Assembly (NCBI GenBank): GCA_002007315.1
Contig: LNZQ01000227.1
Span: forward strand, 1 to 11,359
Origin: Epulopiscium sp. Nele67-Bin004
GTDB lineage: Bacteria; Bacillota_A; Clostridia; Lachnospirales; Cellulosilyticaceae
Direction: 5' to 3'
DNA: 11,359 bases
Numbering within the stretch: position 1 is the first letter of the stretch; each line of letters begins with the position of its first letter. The translations under genes and the position numbers were made by a program. This document shows, in pieces, positions 4,886 through 11,359 of this stretch. Below the pieces are notes generated by a model. That model searched no databases and was not told the origin of the DNA. It saw nothing but the letters and a program-made list of their open reading frames with translations.

Positions 4886-5317
4886 TTATTTATTAAGATT
4901 TGCCAAAACAGCCTGTATCTGCTCTTGTGCTTTTGTCTGTATATCCAGCATTTTCTGCTTGTCGGCGAGACGTTTTTGATTCATCTCCGCATCCAGCAAG
5001 GCAATCTGCTCGGCAAGTTTTTGGGCTTTTTGCTTGTCCTTTTCGGCTTTCATTTCTTTGGTTAAATTTTTAACCTGCTCGCGGGTTTCTTTATCTTTAT
5101 CTTTCAATGATTTCATCTCGTCGCGTGATTTTTCGATAATCTGCTTGATTTCGCTTTGCACAGCCTCAGGCAGAGCTTCCATCACCTTACGGCTTATTCC
5201 CATATCTTCGCCGCCTCTTCCACCGCCGCGTCCTCCGCGACCGCCGTCTCTAGCTTGAGCGAAAGAAACTCCGCTGATTAAAAATACACACAATGCCAAC
5301 ATAATTTTACTTTTCAT
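4886..5317 (-). CDS. Small exported helical protein with Gly/Arg-rich N-terminus (family member A)
   Basis: This 143-residue protein has a signal peptide MKSKIMLALCVFLISGVSFA|Q. A Gly/Arg-rich stretch (about 23-36, repeats of GGRGG) follows, then a long Lys/Glu/Gln-rich helical region to the end. The helix region holds LPEAVQSEIKQIIEKS (49-64) and, near the C-terminus, ADKQKMLDIQTKAQEQIQAV. The same landmarks recur in the next three genes, so they form one family. Small exported all-helical proteins of this build recall the CpxP/Spy periplasmic chaperone and metal-stress group, but the LTxxQ motif is not present; LPxxxQ sits at the comparable place. Function is therefore only suggested. The start is supported by AGGAG 7-8 bases upstream. 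Confidence 0.8.
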   Translation of the reverse strand: MKSKIMLALCVFLISGVSFAQARDGGRGGRGGGRGGEDMGISRKVMEALPEAVQSEIKQIIEKSRDEMKSLKDKDKETREQVKNLTKEMKAEKDKQKAQKLAEQIALLDAEMNQKRLADKQKMLDIQTKAQEQIQAVLANLNK

Positions 5318-5384
5318 AATTCTCTCCTAAGAATATATTTGTCTGAATAGACTTATTTTTTTTATAATCGACTATACTATATTA

Positions 5385-5416
5385 AGTCCGCAGCTCCGCC
5401 TAAGGATTCGTTTTTC
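5385..5416 (-). promoter_or_regulatory. Promoter region of family member A, homologous to that of member B
   Basis: On the minus strand GAAAAACGAATCCT (5416-5403) is followed by 14 bases and then GACTT (5388-5384), running into an ATATA-type stretch. The same 14-mer, the same 14-base gap and GACTT recur upstream of the next gene (5993-5961). The -35 position here is degenerate (CGGACT), so promoter strength is uncertain; common origin with the other copy is clear. Confidence 0.5.
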
Positions 5417-5436
5417 ACAAAAAAATTTTACCCAAC

Positions 5437-5465
5437 AAAAAACACCCCGATTAAGAGGTGTTTTT
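5437..5465 (-). terminator. Rho-independent terminator after family member B
   Basis: AAAAACACC (5438-5446) pairs with GGTGTTTTT (5457-5465) around a 10-base loop, with a T run on the minus strand. It ends 18 bases from the stop codon of 5483-5905. A 24-base core is identical to the hairpin at 6014-6037. Confidence 0.75.
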
Positions 5466-5482
5466 ATAAAACATATCTATAA

Positions 5483-5905
5483 CTATTGAGCTAAGATTTT
5501 TTGTATCTCAGCAACGATTTTTTGTTTCTCGGCGAGATACCTTGTTTCCATATTCATTTTCATAACGGAGACTTCGACAGCCATTTGAGCGGCTTTTTCT
5601 TTGTCTTTCTCGGCACGCATGGTTTTTTCCATTTCTTTCATTTTATCGTACTCGGCTTTTTCGCCTTCACGCATGGTTTTGAGTTCTTCCTTAGATTTTT
5701 CCATCAATTCCTTGATAGACATCTGTATGGATTCAGGCAATGCATTGAAGACGCGCTTATTGATAAACTCGTCACGCATATCGCCTTTGTGGTCGCCTCT
5801 CCAGCCCATACGGTCGCCGCGTTCGTTTTTGCTTTTTTGCGCGAAAGCCTCGCCGCCTGCCAAAAACACGCTCAAAACCAGAGCAAACAAAATACTTTTT
5901 CTCAT
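5483..5905 (-). CDS. Small exported helical protein (family member B)
   Basis: This 140-residue protein has a signal peptide MRKSILFALVLSVFLAGGEAFA|Q. A short charged, Met/Trp/His-containing stretch (about 29-45) is followed by a Lys/Glu/Met-rich helical region. It shares LPESIQMSIKELMEKSKEE (54-72) and the C-terminal AEKQKIVAEIQKILAQ with members A and C, and is the closest relative of A. It lacks the LTxxQ motif of CpxP/Spy, so that assignment is only structural analogy. The start is supported by AGGAG 8 bases upstream. It has its own promoter-like boxes (5945-5967) and its own terminator, so it is probably a single-gene unit. Confidence 0.8.
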   Translation of the reverse strand: MRKSILFALVLSVFLAGGEAFAQKSKNERGDRMGWRGDHKGDMRDEFINKRVFNALPESIQMSIKELMEKSKEELKTMREGEKAEYDKMKEMEKTMRAEKDKEKAAQMAVEVSVMKMNMETRYLAEKQKIVAEIQKILAQ

Positions 5906-5939
5906 AATGTTCTCCTAAAACATAATTTATATAAAGATA

Positions 5940-5967
5940 ATTTAAGCTTTATATTATATAAAGTCAA
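5940..5967 (-). promoter_or_regulatory. Promoter of family member B with an internal palindrome
   Basis: On the minus strand TTGACT (5967-5962) is followed by 17 bases and a weak -10 (TAAATT). The spacer is almost filled by the palindrome CTTTATATAATATAAAG (5963-5947, 8-bp arms around one base), which is operator-like in position. The 14-mer GAAAAACGAATCCT lies 14 bases further upstream. Confidence 0.45.
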
Positions 5968-6012
5968 CAAAAAAGTTTCAGGATTCGTTTTTCCAAAAAA
6001 GCTCCAAAACAC

Positions 6013-6043
6013 AAAAAAACACCCCGATTAAGAGGTGCTTTTT
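6013..6043 (-). terminator. Rho-independent terminator after family member C
   Basis: AAAAGCACCTCTT on the minus strand pairs through CACC/GGTG and flanking A/T runs, ending in TTTTTTT, just after the stop codon at 6056. Its core is identical to the terminator at 5437-5460. Confidence 0.7.
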
Positions 6044-6055
6044 TGACTAACAGAT

Positions 6056-6580
6056 TTAATTTGTAGCATTCAGTATGCTGTGGATTCTTTCCTGCGCTTG
6101 AATACGAATTTCTATAGCTTTTTGCTCGGCTAGCAATTTTTCTTTCTCTGCGGCATTTCTGGCGAGAGCGATTTCTTTTGCTATTTCGCTGGCTTTGGCT
6201 TTATCCGTTTCATCGACCAAACGTTTTTCCATACTGCTCATATCTCTATTCACGGTATTTCTGACTTTCATGTCGAGGGCGTGTACTTCCGCTTCGGTTT
6301 CCTGCACTATCGATGCGATAGAAATTTGAATTTCATCGGAAAGATGATGCAGTTCCGCAGGCAGATTTCTGACAAAACTCATATCTCTGCGGGCGTTTGT
6401 TGCGCCGGCTTGATTTGTTGTACTCGCTGTACTGTTTGTCGACACTGCCTGCGTATTCGTGGAATGCGAACGGTCAGCGCCTTTCATTGTGTCGTCGCTG
6501 TTACGGCGATGGCACGTGCTTACCATAATCAAACCTACAACGGCAACCACAGCAATAATAATAATTTGTCTTCTATTCAT
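6056..6580 (-). CDS. Membrane-anchored helical protein (family member C)
   Basis: This 174-residue protein has a basic N-terminus (MNRRQ) and one hydrophobic segment (about 6-21), then CHRR (23-26), a Ser/Thr/Asn-rich linker (about 29-62) and the helical domain of the family. The domain has LSDEIQISIASIVQE (80-94) and, near the end, AEQKAIEIRIQAQERIHSIL. Unlike A, B and D it seems to keep an uncleaved anchor; Cys23 lies after VST, not a canonical lipobox, so lipidation is uncertain. The start at 6580 is set by AAGGAG about 9 bases upstream. It follows the 45-codon mini-gene by 103 bases, with which it shares the anchor and linker. Role unknown; a periplasmic stress or envelope-binding function is conjecture. 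Confidence 0.78.
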   Translation of the reverse strand: MNRRQIIIIAVVAVVGLIMVSTCHRRNSDDTMKGADRSHSTNTQAVSTNSTASTTNQAGATNARRDMSFVRNLPAELHHLSDEIQISIASIVQETEAEVHALDMKVRNTVNRDMSSMEKRLVDETDKAKASEIAKEIALARNAAEKEKLLAEQKAIEIRIQAQERIHSILNATN

Positions 6581-6683
6581 GGCAATTCTCCTTGCTAAGA
6601 ATACATTATAATTAAATTCAAATAATAAATATCCGTCATTCTAAATTACCTTTTATATTCTAATTAAATCACCAAAACAGATG

Positions 6684-6821
6684 CTACTGGTTCGTTGTTT
6701 GTGTTGCTGGTGTATTAGCGTTGTGGCTTTGGCTGCTTCTGCCTCTTCTATGACAGAATCCCAACAGAACAACTAACACAATCACGACTACGCCAATGAT
6801 TATCATGGTTCTACGGCTCAT
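6684..6821 (-). CDS. 45-residue membrane mini-protein, truncated paralogue of member C
   Basis: The product is MSRRTMIIIGVVVIVLVVLL, then GFCHRR and an Ser/Asn/Thr-rich tail ending ATQTTNQ. An excellent AGGAGGGAG lies just upstream of the ATG, one of the best ribosome sites in the window, so translation is likely. It matches member C residue by residue in layout: basic N-terminus, one membrane segment, CHRR, then a Ser/Thr/Asn linker ending TTNQ. It stops exactly where the helical domain would begin. No helical-domain remnant is visible downstream in any frame, so this looks like a clean short gene rather than a fresh frameshift. It lies 33 bases after member D and is probably co-transcribed with it. 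Function unknown. Confidence 0.7.
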   Translation of the reverse strand: MSRRTMIIIGVVVIVLVVLLGFCHRRGRSSQSHNANTPATQTTNQ

Positions 6822-6854
6822 AGCTCCCTCCTAAATTTATTTGCTTATATCAGA

Positions 6855-7316
6855 TTAATTATACATATTAGTATTCATACTTGAATTCATATTTGTAGTG
6901 CCGGCTGCGCTTCTGATTATCGCCTGTATTTTTTCGTGACCGGCTTGACGCAGTTGATAAATCTGCTCGCTCACATTCAAATACTCCTGCACGGCTTGTT
7001 TTTGAATATTAACCATATTCTGCTGCGAGTTCACGGAGGCGTTTGTGCTGTAGTTGTTCACCTCTTGAAGCAGCTGCCGCAAATCAGAATTTTCCACGAC
7101 GTGGCGGATTTTCATCATTGTCTCCTCGTGAATCTGCTCTATCTTGCGCTGGTCTGCAGCCGGCAGAATCGCAAATATAGGCAGGTGCATCATGACGTTT
7201 GACATATGCGTGTTTGTGTGCATATTTTGTCGGTGCTGCATATTTGTATTATACATAGCAAAAGAACTTCCGCTGCAGACAAAAACAAATAAAAATATCA
7301 ATATACCCTTTTTCAT
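6855..7316 (-). CDS. Small exported Met/His/Asn-rich helical protein (family member D)
   Basis: This 153-residue protein has a signal peptide MKKGILIFLFVFVCSGSSFA|M. The mature N-terminus (about 21-46) is unusually rich in Met, His, Asn and Thr (for example MQHRQNMHTNTHMSNVMMH). A helical region follows with LPAADQRKIEQIHEETMMKI (53-72) and GHEKIQAIIRS, and the tail is again Asn/Met-rich (about 140-153). It is the most diverged member of the four-gene family, with Gln/Asn replacing much of the Lys/Glu. The His/Met clusters could bind a metal such as copper, but this is inference from composition. The start is supported by AGGAG about 10 bases upstream. No terminator follows it, which fits joint transcription with the mini-gene downstream. 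Confidence 0.78.
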   Translation of the reverse strand: MKKGILIFLFVFVCSGSSFAMYNTNMQHRQNMHTNTHMSNVMMHLPIFAILPAADQRKIEQIHEETMMKIRHVVENSDLRQLLQEVNNYSTNASVNSQQNMVNIQKQAVQEYLNVSEQIYQLRQAGHEKIQAIIRSAAGTTNMNSSMNTNMYN

Positions 7317-7408: not shown

Positions 7409-7435
7409 AAAAACTGCAAAAAAATTGCAGTTTTT
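7409..7435 (-). terminator. Rho-independent terminator after the TPR-like gene
   Basis: AAAAACTGCAA (7409-7419) and TTGCAGTTTTT (7425-7435) form a perfect 11-bp stem with an A5 loop, with a T run on the minus strand. The stem overlaps the stop codon at 7434-7436. Confidence 0.8.
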
Positions 7436-8171
7436 ATTTGTAATATTCGCCGTTGACGTTCGCGTCTATGGCTTTTTGTATCATCATATTATCGGGGAAC
7501 ATATTATGCGCGATTTTTATCTCTTCTTCGGCTTTCTGCTCCTCCCCCTTCCTGAAGTACACCTGCGACCGCCAAAGATAAAGCTCCAGCTGTTCGCGTT
7601 TGGTGACGGCGTATTTTTCGGCTTGATTTAGATAGTCCAAAGTCTTATCGAGAGAGCCTCCGCCGTACTTTGGAGCGTAATAATACCACATAGCCATCCT
7701 GATATACGCCATAAAAAAGGTGTTATCCATTTTGATTGCCTGCTCATAAAATTTCAGATTCTGCTTGGAAATCGAAATCAACGTAGGCAGACTCTTGTAT
7801 GTACTCATCACAAAACCTATATCCGCCAGCACCGTGATAAACGCAGAGTCGACGGGGTTGCTTTTCATATATGCGAGCATTTCGTTTCTTTTGTCTTCTA
7901 GTGCTTTTACCTGCTGCGCCGATAATTTATCACCCGAGTAGATTTTATTTGTAAGATACAAATAAAACGCATCCAGCGAGATACCGTCGCGTTCCGATAG
8001 TTTTTGATTTTTTGTGTAAAGATATATTTTATCTATCTCCAAGCCCATATCTTCGGCATTGGTTAGAATTTTACCGTTTGGAGATACCTGCGAGTAATAC
8101 GTCTCAGCCAAGTCGTTAATAGCCCCGTAAAGCGGCGACACGCATAAAATAAGAAGCAGCAGCAACAACAT
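7434..8171 (-). CDS. Exported tetratricopeptide-like repeat protein
   Basis: This 245-residue protein has a signal peptide (MLLLLLLILCVSPLYG|A). The C-terminal half looks like helix-turn-helix repeats of the TPR type: KFYEQAIKMDNTFFMAYIRMA, then LDYLNQAEKYA.TKREQLELYLWRSQVYFRKGEEQKAEEEIKIAHNMFPDN. The insert YYYAPKYGGGSLDKTLDYL between repeats resembles that of TPR proteins such as the spirochaetal TatT, where a Pro/Gly-Gly loop splits two repeats. That link is tentative. TPR proteins act as protein-binding scaffolds, here probably in the periplasm. The start has GAGGA 7 bases upstream and a good promoter (8221-8250). It is transcribed divergently from gatA. Confidence 0.75.
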   Translation of the reverse strand: MLLLLLLILCVSPLYGAINDLAETYYSQVSPNGKILTNAEDMGLEIDKIYLYTKNQKLSERDGISLDAFYLYLTNKIYSGDKLSAQQVKALEDKRNEMLAYMKSNPVDSAFITVLADIGFVMSTYKSLPTLISISKQNLKFYEQAIKMDNTFFMAYIRMAMWYYYAPKYGGGSLDKTLDYLNQAEKYAVTKREQLELYLWRSQVYFRKGEEQKAEEEIKIAHNMFPDNMMIQKAIDANVNGEYYK

Positions 8172-8220: not shown

Positions 8221-8250
8221 ATTATATAACAATTTACTATATTTTGTCAA
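8221..8250 (-). promoter_or_regulatory. Sigma70-type promoter of the TPR-like gene
   Basis: On the minus strand an exact TTGACA (8250-8245) is followed by an 18-base spacer and an exact TATAAT (8226-8221), about 50 bases upstream of the ATG at 8171. Confidence 0.7.
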
Positions 8251-8343: not shown

Positions 8344-8372
8344 TTGACTTATGTATTGATATATTTTATAAT
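8344..8372 (+). promoter_or_regulatory. Sigma70-type promoter of gatA
   Basis: TTGACT (8344-8349) and exact TATAAT (8367-8372) are separated by 17 bases, 31 bases upstream of the gatA ATG. A perfect inverted repeat flanks the -10 box (8354-8390). Confidence 0.75.
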
Positions 8373-8390
8373 AAATAAAGTATATCAATA
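8354..8390. repeat. 10-bp inverted repeat flanking the gatA -10 box
   Basis: TATTGATATA (8354-8363) and TATATCAATA (8381-8390) are exact reverse complements 17 bases apart. The TATAAT box lies between them and the likely transcription start lies at about the right arm. The position suits a repressor operator. Confidence 0.55.
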
Positions 8391-8402: not shown

Positions 8403-8552
8403 ATGTCTATCACATCTAAAAAAATATACCAGCTATCGGAAATGCTCTCCAAAAAAGAAATCAGCTCAGCTGAGATTACAGAACATTACCTCAAAAATAT
8501 CGATACCCGCCGCCGTTCGTCTTGGCATACCAAAGCTTGTATAACTAGCTAA
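8403..8552 (+). CDS. gatA: N-terminal fragment of aspartyl/glutamyl-tRNA amidotransferase subunit A, truncated by a sequence junction
   Basis: Translation from ATG 8403 (AAGGA 7-8 bases upstream, promoter at 8344) gives [20 protein letters not shown] followed by [14 protein letters not shown]. This is the standard GatA opening: a helix, then K/EIS(S)xE(L/I)xxxYLxxI. GatA is the amidase subunit of GatCAB, which converts mischarged Glu-tRNA(Gln) and Asp-tRNA(Asn) to the amide forms. Only about 34 codons of roughly 480 are present. After Asp34 (8504) the reading becomes [10 protein letters not shown] and stops at 8552, because the DNA is now the reverse strand of radA. The amidase Ser-Ser-Lys triad is absent. 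The break is best read as a chimeric join, not gene decay. Confidence 0.7.
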
Positions 8553-9473
8553 AGCTTGAACCTCGATAAGCATAGGACGTGTTCCTTCTATATTACAAGT
8601 TACCACTGACCCGGGAGCATCTTCAGGTCTACCTGCCAGCATTAGTGCTGATGGATTGTTCACCTCAACAAGTCCAACATCAACCATTTCAAAAACGCCA
8701 ATTTCATTTGTAGATCCAAATCTATTTTTTACCGCCCGCAAAATCCTAAATGAGGCATGTCGCTCACCTTCAAAATATAACACTGTATCAACCATATGTT
8801 CCAGCACTCTAGGTCCTGCAAGTGCACCTTCTTTAGTTACATGTCCCACTATAAGTATAGTTATTCCATCACCTTTTGCAATGTTCATAAGGGTATGAGT
8901 TGCCTCTCTAACTTGACTAACGCTTCCAGGTGCAGATGTCACTTCTTCGCAATATACAGTTTGGATAGAGTCCAAAATTATTAAATCAGGCTTATTATTT
9001 TTAATAGTTGCTGTAATATTTGACATGTTGGTTTCTGAAAGCAATGATAAATTCTCTGTTTGAACTTTTAAACGTTCTCCTCTAAGTTTTATTTGTGCCA
9101 CCGATTCTTCACCCGAAATGTATAGCACTTGTTTGCTTTGTGTTCCAAGCGTTTCACATATTTGCAATAATAATGTCGACTTACCAATTCCAGGGTCTCC
9201 CCCTACAAGAACAAGAGACCCTCTAACGATACCACCACCAAGCACCCTATCAAGTTCCCCCATGCCCGTAGTTGTTCGGCTCTCCTCTAATATTTGAACT
9301 TCTTTAAGTTTTATAGGTTTGTTTGCAATATTTTTCTCGATTGTTTTAGCTTTTACATCAACAATTTCTTCGACAAGGGAATCCCATTCATTGCAAGATG
9401 GGCATTTTCCAAGCCACTTCACAGATTGATGTCCACAAAGTTGACATATATACATATTTTTCTTTTTAGCCAT
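8466..9473 (-). CDS. radA: DNA repair protein RadA/Sms, C-terminus replaced at a junction
   Basis: RadA is a RecA-like ATPase and helicase that promotes branch migration in recombinational repair. The start at ATG 9473 fits GGAGGA directly upstream, better than the in-frame TTG at 9485. Present are the zinc finger Cys10-x2-Cys13-x10-Cys24-x2-Cys27, Walker [11 protein letters not shown] (91-100), Walker B LIILDS (164-169), the RadA-specific KNRFG (249-253) and the start of the Lon-like domain ([26 protein letters not shown], 297-325). RadA homology stops at Asp325 (8499). The last 10 codons ([10 protein letters not shown]) are antisense gatA. About 120-130 residues of the usual ~455 are missing. 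It lies downstream of clpC as in Firmicutes, in DNA visibly more AT-rich than the left piece. Confidence 0.92.
8499..8507. other. Chimeric junction between gatA and radA
   Basis: ATCGATACC can be read both as the gatA continuation (I-D-T) on the plus strand and as radA (G-I-D) on the minus strand. Left of it the sequence is GatA; right of it, RadA. Composition also changes here. Confidence 0.75.
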
Positions 9474-9489
9474 ATTTTCCTCCAATAAA

Positions 9490-9519: not shown

Positions 9520-9930
9520 TTATTTTGCTGTTAATTCAACAAGTTTTTCTTCTGCCGTTGCATCAACCGAAATATTTACTTTTCCTGTTGCAGTCGTCTT
9601 TACAAGGCCAACCATTGCTTTGTCAACTTTAAAATCATATTCGGTATCAGGCGTAAGTTCTAAAGTTATTTGTGTTTGTGCCGTACCTTCAACAAAAAAC
9701 CTTACACCTTTATCTGTAACTTTGAAGTGATGAACTGCTGTTCCAGGGATTGATTCATACACTAATTCACCATCTTTTTTTAGCTTAGTAACTTCATTAA
9801 AACTTTTAGCTTTGTATTTAAAACCTTCTATTTCAAAATCCAAAACTTTTGTTTTACTATCCAATTCATAATTCCCAAAACTTATAGTGCCGTCCGAGTT
9901 AGTTCGTATAATTTCTTTAATAACTGCCAT
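9520..9930 (-). CDS. Small conserved clostridial protein of the type often annotated 'endosialidase'
   Basis: This 136-residue protein starts MAVIKEIIRTNSDGTISFGNY and contains the segment YESIPGTAVHHFKVTDKGV (59-77). From memory it closely resembles a family found in Lachnospiraceae and related Clostridia that databases often label endosialidase. It is far too short to be a catalytic sialidase and shows no sialidase Asp-box, so that name should not be taken as function. Composition is acidic with alternating hydrophobics, suggesting two small beta-sandwich parts. There is no signal peptide and no cysteine. It lies between clpC and radA, which are usually adjacent, with its own promoter (9969-9997) and terminator. 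Role unknown. Confidence 0.7.
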   Translation of the reverse strand: MAVIKEIIRTNSDGTISFGNYELDSKTKVLDFEIEGFKYKAKSFNEVTKLKKDGELVYESIPGTAVHHFKVTDKGVRFFVEGTAQTQITLELTPDTEYDFKVDKAMVGLVKTTATGKVNISVDATAEEKLVELTAK

Positions 9931-9968: not shown

Positions 9969-9997
9969 ATTATACACATAAAATGTTATTTTGTAAA
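9969..9997 (-). promoter_or_regulatory. Promoter of the small gene, overlapping the clpC stop codon
   Basis: On the minus strand TTTACA (9997-9992), a 17-base spacer and exact TATAAT (9974-9969) lie about 38 bases upstream of the ATG at 9930. The -35 box is inside the clpC 3' end. Confidence 0.65.
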
Positions 9998-11359
9998 AAC
10001 AATTTTTTCTTTATCGTCTTCTTTTGTAGTTTCAACCTGAACAGTATCGCCTTCACGAACTTGACCTGAAAGCATTTCATCAGCAAGTTGGTCTTCAATT
10101 GTTGATTGAATAAGTCGTCTAAGTGGTCTTGCACCATAAGCTTCATCGTAACCTTTAGTAGCTAAGAATTTGATAGCATCTTCGTTTAACACTAAATTTA
10201 CACCCACATTTTTTGATATACGTGCAACTAAATTTTTTGTCATAACTTGGGCAATCTCTTCAATATGCTCTTGATTTAATGGATGGAAAACAATAGTCTC
10301 GTCTAGTCTATTTAAAAATTCAGGTCTAAACAACTTTTTTACTTCTTCCATAACCATTTTTTTCATATCAGTATATTGTTTATTTGCATCACTATTATTT
10401 ACAAACCCCATACGTTTAGGTGTCATAATCTGTGTTGCACCAATATTAGAGGTCATAATGATAATAGTATTTTTGAAATCCACAACTCTACCTGTTGAAT
10501 CTGTAATGTGTCCATCATCCAAAATTTGTAATAAAATATTAAACACATCACCATGAGCCTTTTCAATTTCATCAAGCAATATCACTGAATATGGCTTTTG
10601 TCTAATTTTTTCAGTAAGTTGACCACCTTCTTCATATCCTACATATCCAGGAGGCGAGCCAATAAGTTTTGATACAGAATGTTTCTCCATATACTCACTC
10701 ATATCAATTCTAATCATAGACTTTTCTTCACCAAAAAGTTCTACTGCTAAAGCTTTAGTAAGCTCAGTTTTCCCAACACCCGTAGGTCCTAAAAACAGAA
10801 ATGAACCTATCGGACGGTTTGGATCTTTGAGCCCAACACGACCACGGCGTACTGCTTTAGAAACACTGACAACTGCTTCATCTTGACCAATGATTTTTTT
10901 GTGTAATTCTGCTTCTAGATTTTGAAGCTTTTTACTGTCTTCTTGAGCAAGCTTAGTAACTGGTATGTTTACCCAAGTACTTACAACTTCAGCAATATCC
11001 TCCGATAACACAGTTTGGCTATTTTTATTTTGTTTTTCTTCCCAATCTTTTGTAAGTTTTACAAGTTGGGTACGAATTTCGTTTTCTTCTTTTTTAATTT
11101 GACTAGCCAAATCAAAATTTTCATCTATTATTGCTTGTTCTTTTTTTGCACTAAGCCCTACTAGCTGTTTTTCAACTTCTCTAATTTGGTCTGGAGAGGT
11201 GTATGCTCGTAACTTTACACGAGATGCTGCTTCATCAAAACCTTTTCCACTAATATTAAGAGGCAATCTGTTTTTCCAGTTATTGATGCACTCACTCATT
11301 AATTTACTTTCTAAATCTTCAATTAGATTTTGGTTTACTTCTAATGCCTCTTGATTATT
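9986..11359 (-). CDS. clpC: ClpC ATPase, middle and second AAA+ module, with foreign sequence at the 5' side
   Basis: ClpC unfolds proteins for ClpP degradation and is part of the Firmicutes stress regulon. The frame is open to the right edge. Recognisable ClpC starts at DEAASRVKLRAYTSPDQI and continues with a UVR-like middle motif (KKEQAIIDENFDLASQIKKE). The second AAA+ module has Walker A GPTGVGKTEL, the pore loop GYVGYEEGGQ, Walker B VILLDEIEKAH, sensor 1 MTSNIGA, the arginine finger region RPEFLNRLDE and sensor 2 GARPLRR. Before DEAAS one expects the near-invariant FLPDKAIDLI. Instead the frame reads CINNWKNRLPLNISGKGF, preceded by NQEALEVNQNLIEDLESKL, which I do not recognise and which does not fit any AAA+ part. 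Homology therefore ends at about 11,236. The ATG at 11,299 has no ribosome site and is not a real clpC start. Confidence 0.9.
   Translation of the reverse strand, partial: NNQEALEVNQNLIEDLESKLMSECINNWKNRLPLNISGKGFDEAASRVKLRAYTSPDQIREVEKQLVGLSAKKEQAIIDENFDLASQIKKEENEIRTQLVKLTKDWEEKQNKNSQTVLSEDIAEVVSTWVNIPVTKLAQEDSKKLQNLEAELHKKIIGQDEAVVSVSKAVRRGRVGLKDPNRPIGSFLFLGPTGVGKTELTKALAVELFGEEKSMIRIDMSEYMEKHSVSKLIGSPPGYVGYEEGGQLTEKIRQKPYSVILLDEIEKAHGDVFNILLQILDDGHITDSTGRVVDFKNTIIIMTSNIGATQIMTPKRMGFVNNSDANKQYTDMKKMVMEEVKKLFRPEFLNRLDETIVFHPLNQEHIEEIAQVMTKNLVARISKNVGVNLVLNEDAIKFLATKGYDEAYGARPLRRLIQSTIEDQLADEMLSGQVREGDTVQVETTKEDDKEKIVFTK
11234..11242. other. Second probable junction, inside clpC
   Basis: ClpC homology begins at the Asp codon 11236-11234 (DEAAS). 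Immediately upstream on the minus strand the conserved LPDKAIDLI block is absent in all three frames, and unrelated but open coding-like sequence takes its place to the window edge. Confidence 0.6.

Follow-up and report, generated by a model that had tools for sequence, protein, structure and literature searches.

A probable chimera of Brevinema-like and Epulopiscium-like DNA with short shared words at both of its joins

Genes and Composition of the Window

The window, that is, the whole stretch of DNA analysed here (11,359 bases), spans an entire contig, and its genes fall into three pieces, A, B, and C, that meet at two joins (Table 1).

Table 1. Pieces, genes, and joins of the window.
Feature	Position	Strand	Content or basis
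Piece A, Brevinema-like (Spirochaetota) segment	1..8504 (end approximate)		Three secreted-looking paralogues, FAD oxidoreductase, galE, GNAT acetyltransferase, four small secreted-looking paralogues, TPR-like gene, gatA start; assigned by GalE matches, GC3, and codon usage
gatA-like 5′ end, 34 codons, cut at join 1	8403..8504	+	Translation; GatA alignments; weak amidase profile matches
Join 1, word ATCGATACC common to both sides (ATCGAT as a minimum)	8499..8507		Between gatA and radA
Piece B, Epulopiscium-like segment	8499..~11238		
radA 5′ part, Epulopiscium-like, cut after Gly-Ile-Asp	8499..9485	-	TIGR00416, 473 bits; 80% identity to RadA of Nele67-Bin005
136-aa protein between clpC and radA	9520..9930	-	137-aa counterpart at the same place in Nele67-Bin005
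clpC 3′ part, cut at join 2	9986..11238	-	Pfam; DNA matches of related genomes stop near join 2
Join 2, 3-5 bases common to both sides (ATC to ATCAA)	11234..11238		Between clpC and a glycosyltransferase gene
Piece C, 126 bases	11234..11359	-	Identical to L091:2120-2245 of Epulopiscium sp. Nele67-Bin005

At 2-2084 on the minus strand, piece A carries three consecutive secreted-looking paralogues of 201 (open-ended), 231, and 215 aa with mutual identities of 36-40%; the two that were scanned gave no Pfam family, and a comparison of the protein at 1437-2084 with plasmids found none. Four small secreted-looking paralogues (140-174 aa; 22-37% identity in the pairs found) follow one another at 4886-7316 on the same strand, with one of them above the Pfam cut-off for the heavy-metal resistance family Metal_resist. 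Upstream of the TPR-like gene (7434-8171), a perfect promoter-like site, TTGACA-18-TATAAT, lies on the minus strand at 8221-8250.

The taxonomic protein search of piece A was made with one gene product, GalE. The six named sequences among its best 20 matches all belong to Brevinema or Brevinemataceae (60-76% identity), and, within the best 120 of 7999 matches, the nine best are 72-80% identical to it and the first named match from outside these two taxa is that of Elusimicrobium simillimum, at rank 32 (59%). A search of viral contigs with GalE gave no relative, and when 24 genomes of the Epulopiscium family were compared with piece A as a whole, just two short stretches matched, one 57 and the other 36 bases long. 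From this one gene and from codon usage, piece A looks like DNA of a Brevinema-like spirochaete.

Piece B, on the other side of join 1, looks like DNA of an Epulopiscium-like bacterium. The order and orientation of its genes—clpC, a protein without a Pfam family above the cut-off, and radA—equal those of Epulopiscium sp. Nele67-Bin005, to which its DNA is 72-74% identical. The composition of the two pieces differs as well. GC3 is 0.42-0.63 in the genes of piece A (0.54 overall, from nine of its eleven genes, the two at 2-1377 being omitted and the gatA start not being counted) and 0.18-0.26 in the three genes of piece B (0.21 overall), the latter value also being that of eight Epulopiscium genes taken together, a set that includes the homologues of piece B. 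The codon-usage distance between pieces A and B is 12.3, as against 3.6 between piece B and the Epulopiscium set. Searched separately, as the earlier note had proposed, the left half was assigned to Brevinema by GalE and the right half to Epulopiscium by RadA (80%). Thus, by homology searches and codon usage, different phyla, one Brevinema-like and the other Epulopiscium-like, lie on the two sides of join 1.

The gatA-like Start and Join 1

The plus-strand open reading frame that begins with the ATG at 8403 comprises 49 residues in total and was described in the earlier note as a gatA start with promoter and ribosome site that runs to Asp34. This description was borne out by the reading frame itself, by an AGGA preceding the ATG, by a sigma-70-like site (TTGACT-17-TATAAT, 11 of 12 positions, at 8344-8372) of a kind that is frequent in the window (five promoter-like matches found, 3.5 expected from shuffles), and by alignments to GatA N-termini. 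The alignments were made against five of six GatA loci, the sixth having been lost to a motif filter; all five come from the Epulopiscium family and two are nearly identical. Scores ranged from 69 to 81, and in each case none of 2000 shuffles reached the score. Matches to amidase profiles were weak (two families, E = 0.027 and 0.043) and both in N-terminal register, whereas Pfam gave no match to the gatA start. The label gatA is therefore clear by direct alignment and is drawn from the alignments and the weak amidase profiles, since Pfam and solved structures were uninformative. Among the latter, the matches of the 35-residue start to HypB (E = 0.35) and MtrB (E = 0.78), both unrelated, are attributable to chance.

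A bait composed of window residues 1-34 and the GatA body of contig L099, scored on residues 1-42, returned six candidates, none at E ≤ 10, so an intact source copy of the gatA of the window was not seen in this search. Within the Epulopiscium family, gatA is present in 14 of 24 genomes and was not found in that of Nele67-Bin005; such misses may be due to incomplete genomes. In addition, an inverted repeat with 16-base arms that are 94% complementary and five bases apart (8354-8390) covers the -10 region that precedes the gatA-like reading frame and could be an operator.

On the radA side, the homology to TIGR00416 was confirmed to end where the earlier note had placed its end, running through Gly-Ile-Asp up to the join. 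The residues that follow in the window are IFE, while those in the 119 RadA relatives are YNR in 115, YNK in one, and FNR in one, the motif not having been located in the other two. Furthermore, 21 of 295 genomes of the order matched 81 bases around join 1 at E ≤ 0.001 in a DNA search. None of the 21 matches starts to the left of 8499 and six start exactly there; the Epulopiscium-side edge can therefore be placed at base 8499. The layout of the junction across this base occurs in none of these 21 matches among the 295 genomes, the Nele67-Bin005 genome had no match to this short 81-base query, and a 33-base pattern crossing the join had no exact counterpart in viral contigs.

The shared word ATCGATACC reads Ile-Asp-Thr on the plus strand, in the frame of gatA, and Gly-Ile-Asp on the minus strand, in RadA. 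The gatA-side edge would lie at or beyond 8504 if Ile33-Asp34 are native to GatA. The earlier claim that nine bases fit both genes thus holds in so far as the word is present and its ATCGAT part is assigned to both, with Thr35 (to 8507) falling either way, and the shared length is accordingly given as 6-9 bases. Joins made at random were computed to share at least six bases in 0.23% of cases and at least nine in 0.005%.

Join 2, Piece C, and the Contig End

The earlier note described a single head-on join. Join 1 was confirmed, but the contig has a second, previously undescribed join 2.7 kb further on. DNA matches on the clpC side stop at 11236-11240 in ten rows, with no row from that side extending beyond. 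The word shared here would be five bases long if the native clpC codon for Ile was ATT, as it is in contig L001, and three otherwise; random joins were computed to share at least three bases in 6.3% of cases (P = 0.063). The match of piece C lies inside an uninterrupted gene for an 860-aa glycosyltransferase on a Nele67-Bin005 contig (L091) of 5,577 bases.

The lengths over which contig ends overlap were surveyed in all 90 Nele67-Bin005 contigs, each taken up to its first 20 kb; 49 of them were thereby covered whole, and three were all N and had no usable end. Exact end matches of at least 21 bases were counted for 133 usable contig ends together with the two of the window. The 52 matches comprised 29 (16 contig pairs) of exactly 127 bases, 22 of other lengths between 21 and 136 bases, three of which are 127-base overlaps with one or two mismatches, and the 126-base match of the window. 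We attribute the peak at 127 bases to de Bruijn assembly at k = 127, which is the maximum that SPAdes allows. The tail of the window ends inside another contig and is one base below this length, a difference that could stem from the correction of one base or from a separate assembly. The window is likely to come from the same assembly as Nele67-Bin005, although the length of 126 rather than 127 and the 22 of 52 matches with other lengths count against this.

Among the 16 pairs, three were found in which an end lies inside a contig with which it shares almost nothing else over the 3,000 bases beside that end; these ends, which stop in this manner after exactly 127 bases, are in L143/L165, L163/L125, and L167/L162. 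The public Nele67-Bin005 genome may therefore hold further chimeric ends. For the window, comparison of the overlaps suggests that the contig end is likely to be the point at which a chimeric path meets the true path.

Origin of the Joins

Judged on sequence evidence, the window is very probably chimeric and made up of three DNA pieces that derive from fish-gut bacteria living in one community, namely Brevinema-like piece A, Epulopiscium-like piece B, and the 126-base tail, piece C. An artefactual fusion of two genomes had been suspected in the earlier note, and this suspicion is upheld by the differing phyla of the halves, by their sharply contrasting codon usage, and by a second join that repeats the pattern. 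The name Nele67 presumably refers to the surgeonfish Naso elegans. Both Brevinema and Epulopiscium are reported to occur in the guts of Naso tonganus and a butterflyfish (PMC9338936).

A graph that needs an identity of about 127 bases is not expected to merge genomes on 3-9 bases, and the molecules that entered the assembly therefore most likely carried the joins already. The earlier attribution to an assembly or amplification artefact is thereby narrowed, with a chimeric molecule formed before sequencing being favored and a pure assembly merge at the nine-base word being unlikely. The shared words point to annealing, rare as they are in random joins. The mechanism that we propose is in-vitro template switching. 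A growing 3′ end would detach from its template while DNA was being amplified in vitro or the library prepared, a step for and against which we regard the case as evenly balanced. The freed end would then re-anneal on a foreign template where a few bases are complementary (6-9 at join 1 and 3-5 at join 2) and be extended, and the assembler would walk through the resulting chimeric reads, halting at the end of piece C, where the chimeric path would meet the true path on another contig.

Metagenome assemblies are known to produce false joins, and a pure assembly error, in which the library was free of chimeric molecules and the assembler itself fused two genomes where they have a few bases in common, would also place shared words at both joins. 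These words are, however, 6-9 and 3-5 bases long, as against overlaps of mostly 127 bases in the genome of piece C, and the window contains no N and hence no visible gap-filled scaffold; we consider such an error very unlikely.

A real event is more improbable still. In this reading, a Brevinema-like segment would have entered an Epulopiscium-like chromosome by insertion or recombination and so interrupted radA, and clpC would have undergone a second rearrangement. The contig is free of gaps, and short shared words are also carried by the breakpoints of natural end-joining, both of which such an event would fit. It would nevertheless have cut gatA, radA, and clpC all at once, and the codon usage of piece A shows no drift toward that of piece B, while piece C comes to a dead end within a gene whose reading frame is uninterrupted in another contig. 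Moreover, the features that a natural rearrangement would be expected to show at its breakpoints, whether a repeated sequence or a gene for an integrase or from a mobile element, were not found: no mobile-element family scored above the cut-off in 14 window proteins (Pfam, with the open reading frame at 2-604 left out) or in ten (NCBIfam, among the matches listed), clpC giving only weak cross-matches to IS21 helpers below the cut-off, and no repeat of at least 14 bases is present at either join. That a giant, highly polyploid Epulopiscium-like cell held minority genome copies with real end-joined insertions of DNA from neighboring Brevinema is likewise extremely improbable.

On the reading of a chimera formed in vitro, the gatA/radA junction is most likely an ordinary artefact with no standing as a genuine genome feature, and gatA, radA, and clpC, although cut in the window, are probably intact in their source organisms. 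The truncated copies should thus not be taken as pseudogenes. The contig serves only as a warning, in that the adjacency of gatA to radA and the presence of galE with clpC are unusable as neighborhood evidence. The 126-base tail in turn suggests a cheap screen for chimeras, namely a search for contig ends that match the interior of another contig over an assembler-sized length.

Comparison with Known Chimeras

Inter-genome chimeric contigs occur in metagenome assemblies, and the window resembles them in combining several taxonomic sources in one contig and in its dead end at an assembler-sized overlap. Unlike in such contigs, the breakpoint words of the window are far below the assembler overlap, which argues for chimeric molecules rather than repeats.

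The chimeras generated by multiple displacement amplification (MDA, with phi29 polymerase) provide the second comparison. Those described in PMC1855051 and PMC4595205 were formed within one genome and are mostly inverted, whereas in the window two genomes are joined, so that "inverted" has no meaning; amplification of the sample is putative. Complementarity of 2-21 nt was reported in over 70% of MDA chimera junctions, but complementary bases in only 28-35% of chimeras with parts more than 10 kb apart (PMC1855051); as the latter are the kind most like a two-genome join, the expectation of shared words under MDA is weaker for the window than the overall figure implies. The likeness lies in the fusion of unrelated places at short shared words, as set out in both papers: the window draws on two unrelated sources, and the word lies within 2-21 nt at both of its joins. 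According to PMC4595205, MDA chimera overlaps peak at 6 nt and are mostly 5-8 nt long, and the 6-9 bases of join 1 are at or slightly above this published bulk.
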